From the IMG/VR virus record IMGVR_UViG_3300025870_000023, positions 1 through 47,034 of that record: DNA of 47,034 bases. One strand, written 5' to 3'. The translations under genes and the position numbers were made by a program. A model generated the notes under the pieces. It searched no databases and was not told the DNA's origin. It worked only from the letters and a program-made list of their open reading frames with translations. Origin of the DNA: a virus. Shown piece by piece: positions 32,533-41,720 of this stretch (within the stretch, counting starts at the first letter, position 1; each line of letters starts with the position of its first letter).

Positions 32533-34308
32533 ATGATAAAGATCAAAGATCTCACAGTAAAGAACTTCATGAGTGTGGGCAATGTTACCCAAGCAGTTGA
32601 CTTTAACGAAGAACAACTAACACTAGTGCTAGGTGAGAACCTAGATCAGGGTGGCGACGACACTGGATCACGCAACGGTACTGGTAAGACAACCATTATC
32701 AATGGATTAAGCTATGCATTATACGGCACAGCGTTAACAAATATCAAACGCAACAACCTTATTAATAAAACCAATAGCAAAGGCATGTTGGTTACTCTTA
32801 ATTTTGAAAAAGGTGCTAACAAATATCGCATCGAGCGTGGCAGATCACCAAATATATTTAAGTTTTATATAAACGACCACGAACAAAAAGAAGAAGTTGA
32901 CGAATCTCAAGGCGATAGTCGTAAAACACAAGAAAGTTTACAAGAACTACTCGGTATGAGTCACGATATGTTCAAACATATCCTTGCTTTAAACACATAT
33001 ACCGAACCTTTCCTTAGTATGAGAGCAAACGACCAACGTGGCATCATTGAACAGCTACTTGGTATTACTATCCTTACTGAAAAAGCAGGTTTACTTAAAG
33101 AAAAAGTAAAACAAACCAAGGATGCTATTACAGAAGAAACAATAAAAATTAATGCTATCGAAAGTGCAAACAAAAAAATTGAACAAAGTATTGAAACACT
33201 TGCTGGAAGACAACGTGCATGGCAATCAAAGAGTAAAACTGATGCTGCAAAGTTAGATGCAGCTATTATTGAGTTAGAAAAACTTGACATTGACACAGAA
33301 CTTGATGCACATGAAAAACTAACTAACTGGACTGAGTTGAATAATCGTATTACAAGCCTTAACAAAGAAAAAGCAACACTTGAAAGCGCACTAATGAGAG
33401 CAACCAAGAGTGTCGATAAGGCAGAAAAAGACATCACAGATTTAGATGATGCAACATGTTATACTTGTGGACAAGCTCTACACGAAGATAAAAAAGCAGA
33501 AATTGAATCAAGAAAGCAAAAAGAATTAAGTGATGCTGTTACATATCAGTCTGAAGTTGCAAATAAATTAGAATCTACAATGGCACTTCTAAACGATATT
33601 GGAGACATTAACGGACGTCCTAATACATTTTATGAGAATGCAAAGGAAGCATATGAGCATAGAAACAATGTAGATAATCTACGTGCAGCATTGATAAGTA
33701 AACAGCAAGAAGAAGATCCGTATCAAGCACAAATTGACGATATGACTAACACAGCGTTACAAGAAATAGATTGGCAACCTGTAAATGAGTTAACTAGTTT
33801 AAAAGATCATCAAGAGTTTCTTCTTAAACTATTAACAAACAAAGATAGTTTTATACGCAAAAAGATTATAGATCAAAACTTAGCGTATCTAAACAATAGG
33901 CTCACACATTATCTAGATAGATTAGGCTTACCACATCAAGTTAAATTCCAAAACGATCTAACTGTTGAAATTACTCAATTAGGTCAAGACTTAGACTTTG
34001 ATAACTTGAGCAGAGGCGAACGTAATAGGTTAATATTAGGAATGAGTTTTGCATTTAGAGACGTTTGGGAGTCATTGTACCAAGGTATCAATTTAATGTT
34101 TATTGACGAACTTATTGACAGTGGAATGGACACTGCTGGTGTTGAAAGTGCGTTACATGTTTTAAAGAAAATGGGTCGTGAACGCAACAAAAATGTTTTT
34201 CTTATTTCACACAAAGACGAGTTAGTAGGAAGAGTGAATCATGTACTAAAAGTAATCAAAGAGAACGGATTTACATCATACGAAAACGATGTTGAAATTA
34301 TAGAATGA
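32533..34308 (+). CDS. gp46: Recombination ATPase subunit gp46 (Rad50/SbcC-like)
   Basis: 591 aa (T4 gp46 is 560). The Walker A is GSRNGTGKTT (45-54). A coiled-coil region (~180-440) is interrupted by a zinc-hook CYTC at 309-312. The ABC signature is LSRGERNRL (from 492), and the Walker B is MFIDELID with D525/E526. ATP-driven clamp movements of gp46 control gp47 nuclease access. The complex is needed for recombination-primed replication in T4. The hook Cys pair confirms that it is an SMC-like arm and not a plain ABC protein. The stop overlaps the next ATG (ATGA). Confidence 0.95.
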   Translation: MIKIKDLTVKNFMSVGNVTQAVDFNEEQLTLVLGENLDQGGDDTGSRNGTGKTTIINGLSYALYGTALTNIKRNNLINKTNSKGMLVTLNFEKGANKYRIERGRSPNIFKFYINDHEQKEEVDESQGDSRKTQESLQELLGMSHDMFKHILALNTYTEPFLSMRANDQRGIIEQLLGITILTEKAGLLKEKVKQTKDAITEETIKINAIESANKKIEQSIETLAGRQRAWQSKSKTDAAKLDAAIIELEKLDIDTELDAHEKLTNWTELNNRITSLNKEKATLESALMRATKSVDKAEKDITDLDDATCYTCGQALHEDKKAEIESRKQKELSDAVTYQSEVANKLESTMALLNDIGDINGRPNTFYENAKEAYEHRNNVDNLRAALISKQQEEDPYQAQIDDMTNTALQEIDWQPVNELTSLKDHQEFLLKLLTNKDSFIRKKIIDQNLAYLNNRLTHYLDRLGLPHQVKFQNDLTVEITQLGQDLDFDNLSRGERNRLILGMSFAFRDVWESLYQGINLMFIDELIDSGMDTAGVESALHVLKKMGRERNKNVFLISHKDELVGRVNHVLKVIKENGFTSYENDVEIIE

Positions 34309-34543: not shown

Positions 34544-34969
34544 ATGCATTGGAAATACAAAGGAAAAAAAGTTGAATCGATACCAGATGAATACGAAGGC
34601 TTTGTATATCTAATAACAAACATTAAGACAAAACAAAAATACGTAGGCAAAAAGTTAGCAAAATTTAAAACAACTAAGCCACCATTAAAAGGCAGAAAAA
34701 ACAAACGTCGAGGCTACAAAGAAAGCGATTGGCGTGAATACTGGGGAAGTTCAGACAGACTGAACGAAGATGTAAAAAACTTAGGCGAAAAAAATTTTAC
34801 TCGTGAAATACTTTACTTCTGCAAAAGCAGAGCAGAAATGAGTTACATTGAAGCACGAGAACAATTTGATAGGCGAGTATTAGAAACAGACGAATACTAC
34901 AACGGTATCATCAATGTTAGAGTTGGTGGATCAAACAAACTACGCCAGGCACTACTAGAACACAAATAG
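34544..34969 (+). CDS. GIY-YIG nuclease-like protein
   Basis: 141 aa. Residues ~18-37 hold a GIY-YIG-type start: GFVYLITNIKTKQKYVGKK, where VYLI and YVG replace the canonical GIY and YIG strands. A Lys/Arg-rich stretch follows, then SDWREYWGSS, NFTREILYFC, and MSYIEAREQF with a Glu in the position expected for metal binding. Such proteins are common in T4-like marine phages, either as free-standing homing-type nucleases or with unknown roles. It lacks a recognisable DNA-binding tail. The upstream ribosome site is poor. It lies directly before a ~470-base non-coding stretch. Confidence 0.7.
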   Translation: MHWKYKGKKVESIPDEYEGFVYLITNIKTKQKYVGKKLAKFKTTKPPLKGRKNKRRGYKESDWREYWGSSDRLNEDVKNLGEKNFTREILYFCKSRAEMSYIEAREQFDRRVLETDEYYNGIINVRVGGSNKLRQALLEHK

Positions 34970-35438: not shown

Positions 35439-36683
35439 ATGAAATTAAGTGATGTAACAAATAAAAGCAATTATATCTTAAAGGAATCACCTAGCGTTAG
35501 TATTCCTACAACTATAAGACAGATGGCTAATGGCTATATGTTTATAGCAGGCAATGATGTATTTAGATTTACTGTAGGCCAAGGTGGTATTACTACTATG
35601 CGAGAAGCACAGAGAATGGCCACTGAATTAAAAGATAAATGGAGTCTTAGAGGACAACGTCCTGGTTTACGAACTCAATTTGCAGATAATAAAGTAAATC
35701 CACGAATGCTTCCTGGTAATGCTAAACAGAGAGTTAGGCAAATAGGTGCAATCAACAGAGCATCCTTTCCAAAAACAACTGCCTTAATGAATAGCGGCTT
35801 TGGTAAAGTCTTTATGCGTTTGTTAAGAGCGTTCCTTGTAGAAGAACAAATTAGAAATAGTATACTTATAACCATGGCAAATATCGAAGGTGAATTTGCT
35901 GCTGGTGAAATTACCGAAGCTGAATATGTAGATAAAATACAAGTTGCTTGGGGCATGTATGCTGTACAACTTACAGCAATTATGTTGGCTACACTAAGAG
36001 CCGGTAAAAGCGGTGCAGCAATTATTAGAGGCATACGAACTATTGTAAGAAGCGGCCAACTTGCAGTAGGAGCAAGTGGCATTGGTACTGTTCCGGCAAT
36101 ATTAAGTGCTATTGCAACAGAAGCTGGATTTCAACTTGCAATATATTTAATTAGTAACCCTGCTGTACAAAAAGCATTAGTTGATTGGATAGTTGCTTGG
36201 GGTCAAGAATCCTTGTTTGGTTCAATGCTTCAAGGTGCCGTTGAAGGAGCAGGAACTCTTCTAAACGGTGCAGCGTCAGCACTGAATAATCTTACCGGAG
36301 GGTTAGTTGGCAGCGACGATTTTTTTGCAGCCAGCGGCGCCGCAGAAGCAAGTGGTTTTACAGATCCTGGTGCAAGAGATATACCAGGTATAAACGGACA
36401 AGCATATGCTACATCGCAGTGGGCTAGACTTGTCTTCCAAGACATGATATTTCCTCCTGGAAGCAGTCTTGAAAGCAAACGAGTTCCTTATTATAACAGA
36501 CGTCAGCGAGAAATGATGATGGCAGAAGACTTTGGATCACTTACTACTGCACCTGTCGCTGGCGGCAGAGGCGATGGTAATGCAGAAGTTGAAAGACGTA
36601 GACAAGACGGCAATCGAGCACCTAGCACAACAAGTGAACCTGGAATGCCAGTAAATCCAGATGCTACACCTGGACCGCAATAA
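35439..36683 (+). CDS. Putative virion protein with hydrophobic helices
   Basis: 414 aa, not recognised. Residues ~125-160 are helical (FGKVFMRLLRAFLVEEQIRN). Two hydrophobic stretches follow (about 175-190, YAVQLTAIMLATLRAG; 210-245, with IGTVPAILSAIATEAGFQLAIYLI) and could insert into membrane. The C-terminus (~370-414) is Gly/Pro/Asn-rich and disordered. This resembles internal or injected virion proteins that breach the inner membrane, but no family is claimed. It has a late-promoter box and a weak ribosome site. It ends at TAA 36681-36683 with no gap to the stop of the convergent gp51-position frame. Confidence 0.65.
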   Translation: MKLSDVTNKSNYILKESPSVSIPTTIRQMANGYMFIAGNDVFRFTVGQGGITTMREAQRMATELKDKWSLRGQRPGLRTQFADNKVNPRMLPGNAKQRVRQIGAINRASFPKTTALMNSGFGKVFMRLLRAFLVEEQIRNSILITMANIEGEFAAGEITEAEYVDKIQVAWGMYAVQLTAIMLATLRAGKSGAAIIRGIRTIVRSGQLAVGASGIGTVPAILSAIATEAGFQLAIYLISNPAVQKALVDWIVAWGQESLFGSMLQGAVEGAGTLLNGAASALNNLTGGLVGSDDFFAASGAAEASGFTDPGARDIPGINGQAYATSQWARLVFQDMIFPPGSSLESKRVPYYNRRQREMMMAEDFGSLTTAPVAGGRGDGNAEVERRRQDGNRAPSTTSEPGMPVNPDATPGPQ

Positions 36684-36917
36684 TTAAATCCATGCCATTT
36701 TAGTATTTTTACTAGTTTCAATATTATCTTTTATAATATTGTTGAAAATCTCCAAGTCGCCTACATCAGTATCACTAATTAGATCGTGAATATTTGCACT
36801 ACCTCGCATATACCATCCAACACGATACCAATTGTCTTTGATTTGTTTTATTTCATTTTCCATTTCATCGGCTAGCAGATATACTTCTTCGTCAGATAGT
36901 CCTACTAGCCTTTCCCG
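36684..36917 (-). CDS. gp51-position C-terminal extension, read by -1 frameshift from gp26
   Basis: 77 codons in the -1 frame relative to gp26, continuing from the slippery site (RERLVGLSDEEVYLLADEME, then WYRVGWYMRGSANI, ending KNTKMAWI). An ATG does exist upstream at 37004, but the residues it would add are a shadow of the gp26 sequence. The first ATG after the overlap would remove ~20 residues of good coding sequence and lacks a ribosome site. In T4 gene 51, a baseplate-hub assembly factor, follows gene 26, so this is the positional equivalent, though homology to gp51 is not demonstrable by eye. The predicted fusion is 353 aa (276 + 77). Confidence 0.65.
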   Translation of the reverse strand, partial: RERLVGLSDEEVYLLADEMENEIKQIKDNWYRVGWYMRGSANIHDLISDTDVGDLEIFNNIIKDNIETSKNTKMAWI

Positions 36918-36924
36918 AAAAAAT
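36870..36924 (-). promoter_or_regulatory. -1 programmed ribosomal frameshift signal
   Basis: On the minus strand: slippery heptamer T TTT TTC (36923-36917) exactly in the gp26 frame as (GA)T TTT TTC, then a 6-base spacer GGGAAA. Next is the stem GGCTAGTAG (36910-36902) pairing with CTGCTAGCC (36878-36870): 9 bp including one G-U. The gp26 stop TAG (36907-36905) is inside the 5' arm. Heptamer type, frame, spacer length and stem are all those expected for -1 frameshifting. Confidence 0.75.
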
Positions 36925-37744
36925 CCGATGTGTCCAGTGTAACTTTCATATCTTCGTCGTGGCTGCAAGTAATACATTGTACTTTGTGCAAAGGAGGAGA
37001 CCAATTTTTAAAATTGTTTTCAATAGCGGCTTTTACTTTTGCAATATACTTGGTATCGTTATTATTAAAAAAGTCAACTACTTCTTGTCTAGATTGTTCA
37101 ATTTCACCGTCGACTTCGATTCCAACTATTGCATTGTATATTGAATCTAATTGTGCTTGAGCAAGTTGTACATACAATGGATCCATTGCTTTTGCTTTTG
37201 CATCTTCGTCAAAATCTTTATTTGTAATAATTTGATTTAATGATCTTCTTACACCTAATAACTTTTTTTGTCCGTTTGTAAATTCTCTATAACTTAACGG
37301 CCGCAAATGAAAAATAAAATTATCAATTTCAACTTTGTCGTTGAATTTCTTTGTGAGATATGATTCTAAATATTTTGACAAGGGTATTTCATACTGATTT
37401 TCAGATCCACATTCTCCGCAAACTTTTTGCACATTCATAGTATTACCGTAACTTGCAATACGCATTGCTACCATTACTGTGTCAATATCAATTGTTGGTA
37501 TGCTCCAAGGATCGGTAATTGTAGGTATACAACTTTTTACTACTGCTACTGTAGCATCGCCATTGATTAAAGCATCTGGAGTTTTAAACATGATTTCATC
37601 GTTGGGTGTCATGCTAAACACCGGAATATCATTGTGTTGATTATCGTATAGAGCACCATTTGGATAAAACGTTCCACCACTTGGTAAATCAATTTGTAAC
37701 TTTGGTTGCCGTCTATATTTTTTTAAAATGCTTTGATTGTTCAT
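36905..37744 (-). CDS. gp26: Baseplate hub subunit gp26-like / tail assembly protein
   Basis: 279 aa (T4 gp26 is 208). The N-terminus has LPSGGTFYPNG, PVFSMTPNDEIMFKTPDALI and NGDATVAVVKSCIP. A CxxC pair at C109/C112 and another at C257/C260 suggest a zinc ribbon. This pattern is that of gp26 baseplate-hub proteins in T4-like phages. It is transcribed divergently from the tape-measure gene, with a late box at 37778-37785 and an AGGA site before the ATG. The 3' end carries the frameshift signal, so two products are likely: 279 aa and a 353-aa fusion. Confidence 0.75.
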   Translation of the reverse strand: MNNQSILKKYRRQPKLQIDLPSGGTFYPNGALYDNQHNDIPVFSMTPNDEIMFKTPDALINGDATVAVVKSCIPTITDPWSIPTIDIDTVMVAMRIASYGNTMNVQKVCGECGSENQYEIPLSKYLESYLTKKFNDKVEIDNFIFHLRPLSYREFTNGQKKLLGVRRSLNQIITNKDFDEDAKAKAMDPLYVQLAQAQLDSIYNAIVGIEVDGEIEQSRQEVVDFFNNNDTKYIAKVKAAIENNFKNWSPPLHKVQCITCSHDEDMKVTLDTSDFFGKG

Positions 37745-37761
37745 ATTAGTTGTCCTGTCAG

Positions 37762-37769
37762 GTAAATAT
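37762..37769 (+). promoter_or_regulatory. Possible T4-type late promoter box for the tape-measure/head operon
   Basis: GTAAATAT, 43 bases before the TTG start chosen for the tape-measure gene. The same octamer occurs at 42639-42646. It supports a start at 37813, since an upstream ATG at 37750 would precede the promoter. Confidence 0.45.
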
Positions 37770-37777
37770 ACTATATG

Positions 37778-37785
37778 ATATTTAT
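37778..37785 (-). promoter_or_regulatory. T4-type late promoter box for gp26
   Basis: Reads ATAAATAT on the minus strand, 33 bases before the gp26 ATG. It lies downstream of the opposite-facing box at 37762, so the two late transcripts would overlap briefly at their 5' ends. Confidence 0.5.
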
Positions 37786-37812
37786 TTTATCATTAACTTG
37801 GAGTATTTTAAA

Positions 37813-39969
37813 TTGGCTGATACCAGTAACGTCTTGAGTATGTTTACAAATGAAATAAAAGGTGCGGCATCTGCCGGTCTAGGTTTAGCCGGTAATTTGT
37901 TAAGCGGATCTCAAAATTTAAGTGCATATTCAGACGCCTTACAATCAAACACAAAGATTTTGGGTACAGCCGGAAAAGCTATAGCCGGTCTTGTACAATT
38001 TGCAGAAGGTAGTTTAAAAGAATATCAGCAACTTACTAACATTGGTGCTACTTTTGGTGCAAGCATAGTTGATATTAAACAAAGTGCAGCTGAAATGGGC
38101 ATGGAAGTAAAAGACATGACAGAGTTTTTTATGAAAAACCAAAATGCGTTAAGGGTGCTTGGAGGAACAACGGAAGATGCTACACAAAGTTTTATTCAAA
38201 TGAGTAAAGACTTTTTAGATAGCGACTTTGGTACAAATTTACGTATGTTAGGATATGATGTAAAAGATATAAACGAATCTCTTGCTACTTTTGCTGACTT
38301 ACAATCTGTTGAAGGTATGCGTAGGATGCGTACTGACGGAACTCTTAATCAAAATGCAATGGAATTTGCAACTACTTTAGACGAATTAAGCAAACTAACA
38401 GGCAAGCAACGAGATCAAATTGCAGAGGAAATGAGACAAAGACGTAGAAACGGTCAAGTGCAAGCACTACTATCTACTCTTGAAGAAGAACAAGCAATGG
38501 CATTGCAAGAAGGATTGCAAACTGCTGGCGAGTTAGGACCTGGATTTGAAACACTAATACAAGATTTAGTAGCCTTTGGTGCTCCAGTTAGTGATGCAAG
38601 TAAAGACATTGCAAAAGCATTACCTAGTGTAATCGATGAATACGAAGCATATGCAGCCGCAATACGCAACGGTGCTAGTGCCGAAGAAGCACAAGCATTA
38701 CTAGATGATGCAATTGGCGCAAGTGTTGAAGGAATGGAGTCTCCTGATTTTGCTAATTTAGCTCTATTAGGTAACTTTAGTGATGTTGGCGCTAATGCAG
38801 CTGACATGTTAGAAAGTAGTTTTGATTTACGTAGAGGTATTACATCAGCAGCAGAAGGCGCAGAAGATTTATCTGCTGTAATAGGTAGTTTAAGAGATAC
38901 TATTGCTGATCAACAGCAGAGTCAAATGGGTGCTGGCGGTATTATTAGACAAACTGTTGACATGCAAGAAGCATTACGTGAAACTATAATGTATGTTCAG
39001 CAAACTGCGCTACCTGCGTTAGTAGGTGCAGCTGAAAGTGCATTAGTTAAAGTTACAGAAGCAATGGGCGATGATGCTGCATTGCGTAGACAAGTTGAAG
39101 AAGCTATTAGTGGTGTGTTAAATCCAGCAGCAGACGCACTTGATCGGATGTCAGAAGCATTTCCTATGAACACAGCCCAGGCAAACATAGATGCAGAAGA
39201 AGTTGTGCTAGGCGACGGTACTGCTGCTGATTTAGCTGATCAACTTGAAATGGATGTTACTAGTGCGTTAAACGAAAATGATATTTCTACAAACGAAACT
39301 GTTACAACAGCAATTGGGGAAGCAAGAACCGAACTTTCAGATGCACAAGCTGAATTGGCTAGATTGCACGAACAACAAGCACAATTAACTAGCGAAGGCT
39401 TTACTGGGCTAGAAGGCCCTATGCAACAGACACAAGAATTAATTACACAAGCCGAAGCTAGAGTTGCATTAGCGGAAGCAAACTTAGCAAATGAAATACA
39501 AACGACTGTTGCTGATGCACAACGATATACTTTAGGAGCAATTGAACGTTTTCAACAAGCACAAGCAAGTGGTCGACGCTATGCTGGAGGCTTTGATAAC
39601 GGCGGTATGATTTCAGATGATGAATTTGGAATCGTAGGAGAACGTGGTCCAGAGATAGTAAGCGGCAGAGCCAATGTCACAGGACGAATGAAAACTTTTG
39701 ATGTAATGAATAAAATATCAGAAAGAATGAAAGCTGTAGCTAATGCACAGGAAAATCAAGTAAATTCGGTTGACAAAACGTCACAGATAAGTAATAATAA
39801 TAATGAACTCAATGCCATGATTAAGAACTTAAACGATTCAATTAATAATCTGAATGCAGGTATACATAACGTTGCAAGCATCAATCAACAACAATTAGAC
39901 ACAGGGATTAAAAATCTACGTGCAACTAAAGGCTTGCAAGGCAATGTACTGAAAGGGGTCGCTCGATGA
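37813..39969 (+). CDS. Tail tape-measure protein (gp29-like role)
   Basis: 718 aa from a TTG start at 37813, chosen because GGAG (37800-37803) lies 9 bases upstream. The in-frame ATG at 37750 would add a 21-residue hydrophobic leader overlapping the promoter. The protein is mostly alpha-helical and Ala/Glu/Gln-rich. An N-terminal Gly/Ala region (IKGAASAGLGLAGNLLSG) is followed by long helices. Near the C-terminus is FDNGGMISDDEFGIVGERGP, then EIVSG, a near-signature of tail tape-measure proteins. Tail length is set by such proteins at about 0.15 nm per residue, so roughly 105-110 nm would be expected. Its TGA overlaps the portal ATG (ATGA). Confidence 0.82.
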   Translation: MADTSNVLSMFTNEIKGAASAGLGLAGNLLSGSQNLSAYSDALQSNTKILGTAGKAIAGLVQFAEGSLKEYQQLTNIGATFGASIVDIKQSAAEMGMEVKDMTEFFMKNQNALRVLGGTTEDATQSFIQMSKDFLDSDFGTNLRMLGYDVKDINESLATFADLQSVEGMRRMRTDGTLNQNAMEFATTLDELSKLTGKQRDQIAEEMRQRRRNGQVQALLSTLEEEQAMALQEGLQTAGELGPGFETLIQDLVAFGAPVSDASKDIAKALPSVIDEYEAYAAAIRNGASAEEAQALLDDAIGASVEGMESPDFANLALLGNFSDVGANAADMLESSFDLRRGITSAAEGAEDLSAVIGSLRDTIADQQQSQMGAGGIIRQTVDMQEALRETIMYVQQTALPALVGAAESALVKVTEAMGDDAALRRQVEEAISGVLNPAADALDRMSEAFPMNTAQANIDAEEVVLGDGTAADLADQLEMDVTSALNENDISTNETVTTAIGEARTELSDAQAELARLHEQQAQLTSEGFTGLEGPMQQTQELITQAEARVALAEANLANEIQTTVADAQRYTLGAIERFQQAQASGRRYAGGFDNGGMISDDEFGIVGERGPEIVSGRANVTGRMKTFDVMNKISERMKAVANAQENQVNSVDKTSQISNNNNELNAMIKNLNDSINNLNAGIHNVASINQQQLDTGIKNLRATKGLQGNVLKGVAR

Positions 39970-41720
39970 GTTGGAAAAAACATTTTAAACCAGTCCCAAC
40001 TGGAAATAACCCAGGTGGAAGTTATAGTCCTTTCAGCTTCAAACAAGGCCAAGGCACAGGTATGGGACCAGCAGCGGCAAACTATAGTTCACATTTACCA
40101 GATGTGTATGTAGGTTCTCCTAATCGTATTGAACGTTATAATCAATATAACACAATGGATAGTGATAGTGAAGTAAATGCTGCACTTGATATCCTTGCAG
40201 AATTTTGTACACAAAAAACAAATGATAATGATACACACTTTAGTTTAGACTTTAATAAAAAAGCAACAAACATAGAAATTCAAATATTAGGACAATATTT
40301 GAAACAATGGTGTAAGTTAAATAAATTTGAAACACGTATGTTTCGTATTATGCGTAATGTTTTTAAATACGGAGACGGATTTTTTATTAGAGATCCTGAA
40401 ACACAAAAATGGTTTCATGTAGATCCAAGTCAAGTTACAAAAATTATTGTCAACGAAAGCGATGGCAAACGTCCAGAACAATATGCAATAAAGAATTTAA
40501 ATTTTAGTTTTGATAATTTAGAAGCTACTCCTTTAAACACACAAAACAGTTACGGTCCTGGCGGTACTAACGGTTATCAGCAAGTTAAACAACAAGGCAT
40601 GACTGGTAATAATACACCTGCAGGTGGAACAAGTAGATTTGAACAAGGCGAAAAAGAAACTTTTGTAGATGCTAATCATGTTGTTCACTTGTCAATGAGT
40701 GAAGGCTTGGATCAAAACTTTCCTTTTGGTAACAGTTTATTAGAAAGTATTTTCAAAGTTTACAAACAAAAAGAATTACTTGAAGATGCAATTATTATCT
40801 ATCGAGTACAACGTGCTCCTGAAAGAAGAGTATTCTACGTTGATGTGGGCAACATGCCATCACACCTTGCTATGCAATTTGTAGAACGTGTTAAAACGGA
40901 AATACATCAAAGAAGAATCCCATCCAAGACTGGCGGAGGACAAAATGTCATAGACAGTAGTTATAATCCGCTGTCAATCAACGAAGACTACTTCTTTCCA
41001 CAAACTGCTGAAGGACGTGGCTCTAAGGTTGAAACACTGCCAGGCGGTACTAACCTAGGAGAAATTGATGATCTCAGATATTTTACTAATAAGCTCGTAC
41101 GCGGCTTACGAATTCCTTCCAGCTATCTACCTACAGGGGCTGATGACGGAGCAAGTCAGTACAACGACGGTAGAGTAGGCACTGCATACATTCAAGAGTT
41201 ACGCTTTAATAAGTATTGCGAACGACTGCAAAGCATGGTTGAGGAAATATTCAATCAAGAATTCAAATTATATCTAACTAGTAAAGGTGCAAATGTTGAC
41301 TTTGCAATGTTTGATGTAAAACTAAATCCACCACAAAACTTTGCAAGTTATCGTCAAGCAGAACTTGATAATAATAGAATTGGCACATTCTCACAAATGA
41401 GTGCTATACCTTATATTTCTAACAGATTTGCTATGTCACGTTTCTTAGGAATGAGCGAAGAAGAAATTGCAGAGAATGAACGTTTATGGCGTGAAGAAAA
41501 CGATGAAAATCTACAACCAACTGATGCAGAAGGCAGTGCAGAAATGCGTTCAGCTGGTGTAACTGGTGGAGACTTAGGTGGAGACTTAGGTGGATTAGAA
41601 ACAGGATTAGATGACGACTTAGGCGGCATTGATGGCGGTGAAGATACTCCTCCAGAAACTACAACAGCTGACGACTTAGGAGGTGCCGATTTAGGCGAGC
41701 CTACAGATCAAACAGTTTAA
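39966..41720 (+). CDS. gp20: Portal vertex protein gp20
   Basis: 584 aa (T4 gp20 is 524). The T4-type portal core is clear: RIERYNQYNTMDSDSEVNAA, LDILAEFC, then FRIMRNVFKYGDGFFI, HVVHLSMSEGLD, FPFGNSLLESIFKVYKQKEL, IIIYRVQRAPERRVFYVDVG and LPGGTNLGEIDDLRYFTNKL. Twelve copies form the DNA entry channel and initiate prohead assembly. The last ~55 residues are a low-complexity acidic Gly/Asp tail (DLGG repeats). Gene order tape measure-portal differs from T4, where tail sheath and tube genes 18 and 19 precede gene 20; those genes are outside this window. Confidence 0.95.
   Translation: MSWKKHFKPVPTGNNPGGSYSPFSFKQGQGTGMGPAAANYSSHLPDVYVGSPNRIERYNQYNTMDSDSEVNAALDILAEFCTQKTNDNDTHFSLDFNKKATNIEIQILGQYLKQWCKLNKFETRMFRIMRNVFKYGDGFFIRDPETQKWFHVDPSQVTKIIVNESDGKRPEQYAIKNLNFSFDNLEATPLNTQNSYGPGGTNGYQQVKQQGMTGNNTPAGGTSRFEQGEKETFVDANHVVHLSMSEGLDQNFPFGNSLLESIFKVYKQKELLEDAIIIYRVQRAPERRVFYVDVGNMPSHLAMQFVERVKTEIHQRRIPSKTGGGQNVIDSSYNPLSINEDYFFPQTAEGRGSKVETLPGGTNLGEIDDLRYFTNKLVRGLRIPSSYLPTGADDGASQYNDGRVGTAYIQELRFNKYCERLQSMVEEIFNQEFKLYLTSKGANVDFAMFDVKLNPPQNFASYRQAELDNNRIGTFSQMSAIPYISNRFAMSRFLGMSEEEIAENERLWREENDENLQPTDAEGSAEMRSAGVTGGDLGGDLGGLETGLDDDLGGIDGGEDTPPETTTADDLGGADLGEPTDQTV

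Follow-up and report, generated by a model that had tools for sequence, protein, structure and literature searches.

A probable programmed -1 frameshift at the end of gene 26 would append a gp51-like extension to a T4-like tail assembly chaperone

Does gene 26 of this T4-like phage encode one protein, or is it also read past its stop codon into a second, longer product? Tail assembly chaperone genes with a programmed frameshift are known from lambda G/GT and from the P2 tail operon and adjoin the tape measure gene, in most cases on its upstream side; such frameshifting was reportedly treated by Xu, Hendrix and Duda in 2004. The stretch of viral DNA analysed here (47,034 nucleotides, called the window throughout) carries the following features around the end of gene 26:

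36905 to 37744, minus strand: gene 26 (TAC-N, putative short tail assembly chaperone), 279 aa, ATG start, TAG stop; PF12322 T4_baseplate with E 2.9e-16, phrog_150
36917 to 36923, minus strand: slippery heptamer T TTT TTC in the gp26 zero frame; identical in eight other contigs of the window clade (L002-L006, L029-L031)
36911 to 36916, minus strand: 6-nt spacer GGGAAA; identical throughout the window clade
36870 to 36910, minus strand: predicted stem-loop stimulator of 10 bp with arms 36910-36901 and 36879-36870; z -4.12, covariation
36905 to 36907, minus strand: zero-frame stop TAG, inside the 5' arm of the stem
36684 to 36917, minus strand: -1 frame extension (putative gp51-like C-terminus of TAC-NC), 77 codons plus stop; open frame, amino acid identity, third-position differences
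37750 to 39969, plus strand: divergent tape measure protein gene; phrog_1538 (tail length tape measure) 5.4e-05, phrog_167 3.7e-04, PF20155 TMP_3 0.0054, the latter below the family cut-off
39966 to 41720, plus strand: portal protein gene (T4 gp20), used as synteny marker; PF07230 8.7e-113

A preliminary description of the window had proposed a frameshift cassette at this place, and all of its elements are present in the sequence of the minus strand. Gene 26 ends in its zero frame with GAT TTT TTC GGG AAA GGC TAG; the heptamer (36923-36917) and the 6-base spacer GGGAAA (36916-36911) were found as described, and reading in the -1 frame from the C at 36917 indeed meets no stop for 77 codons, until that at 36686-36684. 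The stem holds the zero-frame stop in its 5' arm, as had been stated, but comprises 10 bp counting one G-U pair rather than 9 bp. Folding of 86 nt of the minus strand gave a minimum free energy of -21.4 kcal/mol (z -4.12) that was matched by 0 of 200 dinucleotide shuffles; the plus-strand fold of the cassette region revealed nothing notable, the stem appearing on the minus strand. The gene 26 product scored 60.2 bits against PF12322 T4_baseplate in the profile scan (curated cut-off 24.5) and 3.3e-15 against phrog_150, baseplate hub, in the PHROGs scan. The window contains 46 frames that span 100 codons or more from stop to stop. An XXXYYYZ motif within the last 15 codons occurs in six of them and a -1 frame open for at least 50 codons beyond the stop in eleven; a heptamer near the end and such an open -1 frame coincide in a single frame, which is gene 26.

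The window clade consists of the window and the eight IMG/VR contigs listed above, whose gp26 proteins are 97-100% (three contigs), 76% (two) or 72% (three) identical to that of the window. Heptamer, spacer and stem are kept in all nine contigs, which represent three lineages (gp26 72-100% identical). The stem was aligned at the DNA level in the window and seven of the eight contigs, L002 with its 100% identical gp26 being excluded, which yielded four distinct rows. All 40 cells of these rows are paired; six of the ten pairs are invariant, two changed on one side and two on both sides. When the partner was shifted by 1 to 3 columns, at most 50% of the cells were paired as compared with 100%. 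In 500 shuffles the observed covariation score was reached 7 times and the number of pairs changed on both sides 333 times. As read from this alignment, the covariation is clean, yet few sequences (four distinct rows) stand behind it.

The longest run of nucleotides invariant across the window, L005 and L029 measures 22 nt and covers heptamer, spacer and stop; the runner-up (18 nt) lies elsewhere in gene 26. The last six codons of gp26, few as they are, contain 0/6 synonymous differences in each lineage pair, whereas the remaining codons differ synonymously at 81/193, 84/181 and 86/188 (42 to 46%). An alignment check suggested in the preliminary description, namely whether the cassette is conserved while synonymous sites elsewhere vary, came out as predicted for these three lineages of the clade. 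Past the gp26 stop, the differences fall on the first, second and third codon positions of the -1 frame in the ratios 7/4/28, 11/3/32 and 6/4/31, i.e. 28/39, 32/46 and 31/41 are third-position differences, and the extension of the window is 88% and 84% identical in amino acids to those of L005 and L029, respectively. The extension evolves as coding sequence, and both frames look to be under coding selection. With heptamer, spacer and stem conserved in nine contigs of three lineages, the cassette is not a product of chance.

Outside the clade, we surveyed a first set of 22 loci (the window, L005 and 20 phage records) and a second set of four more. In 18 of the 22 loci, gp26 has a T6 heptamer in its zero frame close to the end, and the -1 frame stays open for 56-76 codons past the stop. 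These loci are XacN1, Atu_ph07, PA5oct, 121Q, RaK2, Munch, SCTP-2, RAS14, Kaldavass, Phosso, GAP32, P-SSM2, phiM7, Aeh1, Desulfovibrio 7757, HTVC008M, L005 and the window itself; in all 18 the heptamer sits at a Phe-Phe. In the second set, nt-1 and RHph_I34 have the heptamer (in the latter as TTTTTTG), and BX-1 and KEP4 have the open -1 frame only, without a canonical XXXYYYZ. Vibrio K362, FKP10 and Cygsa01 likewise keep the open -1 frame and miss XXXYYYZ; LR756508 has neither the heptamer nor a long -1 frame. Taken together, the heptamer is present in 20 of 26 loci, window included, and the -1 frame stays open for 54 codons or more beyond the stop in 25 of 26; some of the gp26 proteins surveyed are merely 20-28% identical to that of the window. 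The P-SSM2-type contigs examined were the best 80 of 570, with gp26 proteins 74-100% identical to that of P-SSM2; TTTTTTC lies 3 nt before the stop in 80/80 and the -1 frame is open for 59-62 codons in 77/80, the contig end intervening in the other three. The arrangement, which had been put forward as a trait of this T4-like lineage, is therefore not peculiar to it.

For the five loci with an open -1 frame and no canonical heptamer (K362, FKP10, Cygsa01, BX-1 and KEP4; L018, L020, L021, L115 and L116), a non-canonical slip or reinitiation are options; FKP10, BX-1 and KEP4 belong to the Ackermannviridae. A further distant gp26 relative (L032:3700-4000, 24% identity, outside the 26-locus count) reads GAC TTT TTT TGG and has its gp51-like frame in +1, not -1; this +1 frame is open from codon 219 to 311, and an ATG lies 4 nt past the stop, so that access to it would come through a +1 slip on T7 or through a start of its own.

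What the extension is had to be addressed by comparison of profiles, since the 77 amino acids returned no match at E <= 1 in Pfam and PHROGs. One profile was built from the fusions of gp26 and extension in the jumbo group (14 rows, window included) and another from those of other T4-like phages (15 rows: P-SSM2, seven P-SSM2-type contigs, HTVC008M, phiM7, Aeh1, K362, Desulfovibrio 7757, FKP10 and Cygsa01), for which the fusions of K362, FKP10 and Cygsa01 were built assuming a slip at TTTTC. In hhalign the two profiles matched each other over both halves (99.4%, E 4.8e-22), and that of the other T4-likes matched T4 gp51 over residues 6-247 of 249 (97.3%, E 2.7e-11) as well as T4 gp26 (99.3%); controls with nine other T4 proteins, two reversed and five shuffled sequences reached at most 1.4%. 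Residues 48-352 of the jumbo fusion aligned with residues 31-256 of a family of five gp51 proteins (probability 93.2, E 2.9e-7), the reversed gp51 alignment reaching 1.6% and ten column shuffles at most 0.7%, in line with the gp26-51 fusion of the preliminary description. Against single T4 sequences the jumbo fusion gave weak signals (10.7% for gp51, 5.7% for gp26). The extension alone, compared with the five gp51s, was again weak for the jumbo group (34.7%, shuffles of this test at most 1.5) and scored 96.8% for the other T4-likes. The comparison indicates that gp26 plus its -1 extension is homologous to T4 gp51 over most of its length, and that T4 gp51 corresponds to the fusion written in one continuous frame. 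If so, one gene would yield both a short (gp26) and a long (gp51-like) tail assembly chaperone.

T4 has the homologous proteins, gp26 as the short and gp51 as the long form, and differs from the window in that it has two genes, that gene 26 is without the T6 heptamer and that the frame past its stop is gene 25. The frameshift cassette was found in none of five phages with a full gp51 (T4, Aeromonas phage 31, KARL-1, phiP4-3 and RB43), nor was a T6 heptamer at the end of their gene 26. In T4, Aeromonas phage 31 and KARL-1, position and annotation identify the frame after the gene 26 stop as gene 25; phiP4-3 and RB43 carry AAATTTA and TTTAAAG near the gene 26 end, and their -1 frames close after two and four codons, respectively. 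T4 thus appears to make both proteins from two genes, 26 for the short form and 51 for the fusion in one frame. In Sullivan et al. (2010, PMC3037559), cyanophage gp51 is given as about 20% of the usual length and gp51 as missing only in Aeh1. Aeh1 carries the heptamer and the open -1 frame and thus has a gp51-like extension too. On our reading, cyanophage gp51 would be short and Aeh1 gp51 would have been reported missing because the short gp51 is the -1 extension. Of 24 phage records fetched, 21 are annotated around gp26 and three are not; none of the 21 joins gp26 to the next frame, so that the long protein is missing or split in them.

The sequences around the slip site vary more than the slip site itself. 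In the window clade the stem reached z values of -4.5 to -5.9 (best of six windows per locus). Across 21 loci evaluated in the same way, z was below -3 in seven, three of which belong to the window clade, and above -2 in nine; a strong downstream structure is thus not general, and the stem is specific to the clade. P-SSM2 and HTVC008M, with their gp26 and 'short gp51', share the T6 run, the -1 frame and the fusion with the window and have a shorter extension. In the P-SSM2 types, unlike the window, the stop comes 3 nt past the heptamer, the hairpin is another one, and a GGAGG-like stretch precedes the slip site. This stretch lies 10-15 nt upstream of the heptamer in the P-SSM2-type contigs (L033-L112; 75 distinct genes), where the mean anti-Shine-Dalgarno energy is -8.8 versus -1.9 elsewhere in the same genes, and Glu is encoded by GAG in 72/75 cases versus 398/1632 elsewhere. 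Their hairpin, examined in 38 distinct junctions, holds its six outer pairs in 37-38 and its two inner pairs in 30 and 22. As stimulators differ between clades that have the same slip site, the sequences point to the slip site as the constant part and to the stimulator as the variable part, and the family provides a range of naturally varied stimulators for one and the same slip site.

We conclude that gene 26 very probably encodes a tail assembly chaperone and undergoes programmed -1 ribosomal frameshifting. The principal alternative, which we consider improbable, is that the extension forms a small gene of its own (gp51), translated from its own start, by stop-start coupling or by reinitiation and unfused to gp26, as the annotation of a short gp51 or a hypothetical ORF after gp26 in P-SSM2, phiM7, 121Q, nt-1 and others and the TAATG or TAGTG at the gp26 stop of some relatives would suggest. 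Candidate starts in the -1 frame were compared across the clade. Upstream of the heptamer the window has TTG 37004, ATG 36977 and TTG 36968, which recur in L002 and L003 (3/9) and are absent from the other six contigs, and codon 5 of the extension is a GTG, with AAAGG before it, in 5/9 (L005, L006, L029-L031) and not in the window. The preliminary statement that the extension has no good independent start therefore calls for some qualification; of the candidates, the ATG at extension codon 19 (36863), present in 9/9, is the only conserved one. No Shine-Dalgarno-like stretch was seen before it by eye, and initiation there would lose 18 extension residues that are largely conserved over the three lineages, whereas remote phages again show FF and, after it, a related stretch at the fusion junction. 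A separate gene would also leave the in-frame heptamer and the covarying stem at 6-nt spacing unexplained, and T4-type gp51 is a single continuous fused chain.

Slippage of the polymerase on the T6 run, giving mixed mRNAs and a fusion made without ribosomal frameshifting, could draw on the T6-T7 runs found at the junction in 20/26 loci. Runs of six to seven are, however, short for efficient polymerase slippage, and the phase, the spacer and the covarying stem, as well as the internal Shine-Dalgarno-like stretch upstream of the P-SSM2-type slip site, fit slippage by the ribosome; we regard this explanation as very improbable. An assembly error or a pseudogene, i.e. one broken gene, has practically no chance of being correct and is refuted by conservation across contigs and records: a homopolymer is a typical error site, but the same frame break is present in nine clade contigs and in many separately deposited phage records, and both frames look to be under coding selection.

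With programmed ribosomal frameshifting as the preferred reading, translation by most ribosomes would end at TAG, with gp26 (TAC-N) as the product. Some ribosomes would pause at the stem-loop 6 bases downstream and slip on T TTT TTC, both Phe tRNAs re-pairing one base back; once the stem is unwound, the stop would be bypassed and 77 residues added, giving a rarer gp26-51 fusion of 353 aa (TAC-NC). On the model of lambda gpG/gpGT, coating of the tape measure protein would fall to the short form, and the long form would use its C-terminal extension to bring in the tube protein or parts of the baseplate hub. The cassette, its conservation and covariation, the coding character of the extension and the homology of the fusion to gp51 are read from the sequences; that slippage occurs, its rate and the chaperone role we infer, as we do the fixed ratio of gp26 to fusion.

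Combining the loci, we think it likely that frameshifting in gene 26 is ancestral in the T4-like superfamily including the jumbo phages, that a duplicated gene 51, fused in frame, took its place in the T4 core lineages, and that stimulators were exchanged between lineages while the slip site stayed fixed, which would account both for the short cyanophage gp51 and for the gp51 reported missing in Aeh1. The stimulators would then be a covarying stem in the window clade, an internal Shine-Dalgarno sequence plus a hairpin in P-SSM2-type cyanophages and none that is obvious in several jumbo phages. For T4-likes outside the T4 core, this offers a testable account of how the long tail chaperone is made. 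The locus resembles lambda G/GT in its short and long forms from overlapping frames, the slip site near the end of the first frame and the adjoining tape measure gene. Differences are the divergent tape measure gene, a first frame of the T4 gp26 family (PF12322), and T TTT TTC plus a stem as slip site. The G/GT-like arrangement proposed earlier is supported by the zero-frame heptamer near the gene end and the long open -1 frame, conserved in divergent relatives, and by the adjoining tape measure.

The kind of system is known, and Vladimirov, Gautam and Davidson are said to have named the T4-like tail assembly chaperone genes in 2022. Frameshifted chaperones of the lambda G/GT type are treated in PMC8785237 and PMC12859696, and PMC3004832 counts T4 gp26 and gp51 among the hub assembly chaperones. 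PMC12846349 refers to poly-T slippery sequences as known in 'TAC-N genes of T4-like phages', citing Vladimirov et al. 2022; for the TAC of Vandenendeviridae and Andersonviridae (phage Adele, GTTTTT motif), the same paper proposes a conserved -1 frameshift at poly-T with a fused C-terminal domain. The preliminary claim that the arrangement is undescribed for T4-like phages is not supported in that form: two papers citing Vladimirov et al. 2022 imply that T4-like TACs, some with poly-T frameshift sites, are already published. A search that was not exhaustive found no literature on frameshifting at T4-like gene 26 beyond these two papers. What may be new is the frameshift in this clade with its covarying stem, the variation of stimulators from clade to clade, and the account given here of why cyanophage gp51 is short.

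The position of the cassette beside a divergent tape measure gene, also part of the preliminary description, agrees with the profile matches of the plus-strand gene at 37750 to 39969; its longest ORF starts with TTG 37750, and 37813 is probably the better start. A gene annotated as structural protein occupies the same place between portal and gp26 in five jumbo phages (PA5oct, 121Q, RaK2, Kaldavass and GAP32), and the RaK2 copy is annotated with similarity to tape measure protein. In HTVC008M a putative tape measure gene follows gp26 on one strand, with two short genes in between; the neighbours of gp26 carry no gene names in XacN1 and RAS14, and in Atu_ph07 no tail genes were seen among them.

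The structure model of gp26 (pLDDT 73.8) had no match with E <= 0.001 among PDB structures, the best VIA-align hit (Z 7.9 over 65 residues) being to helical stretches of proteins that we took as unrelated. In BFVD it matched phage baseplate-hub proteins, including Aeromonas phage 25 gp26. The model of the extension was poor (pLDDT 64.9). C109, C112, C257 and C260 are invariant in seven aligned gp26 proteins, which suggests a split zinc knuckle. Beyond the extension, a 414-aa ORF (window 35439-36683) is convergent with it and abuts its end; this ORF matched no Pfam or PHROGs family above cut-off. Further along lie a gene at 32533-34308 that by eye resembles gp46/SbcC and, after it, a SegE-like GIY-YIG homing endonuclease gene at 34544-34969 (PF19835, E 1.3e-32).
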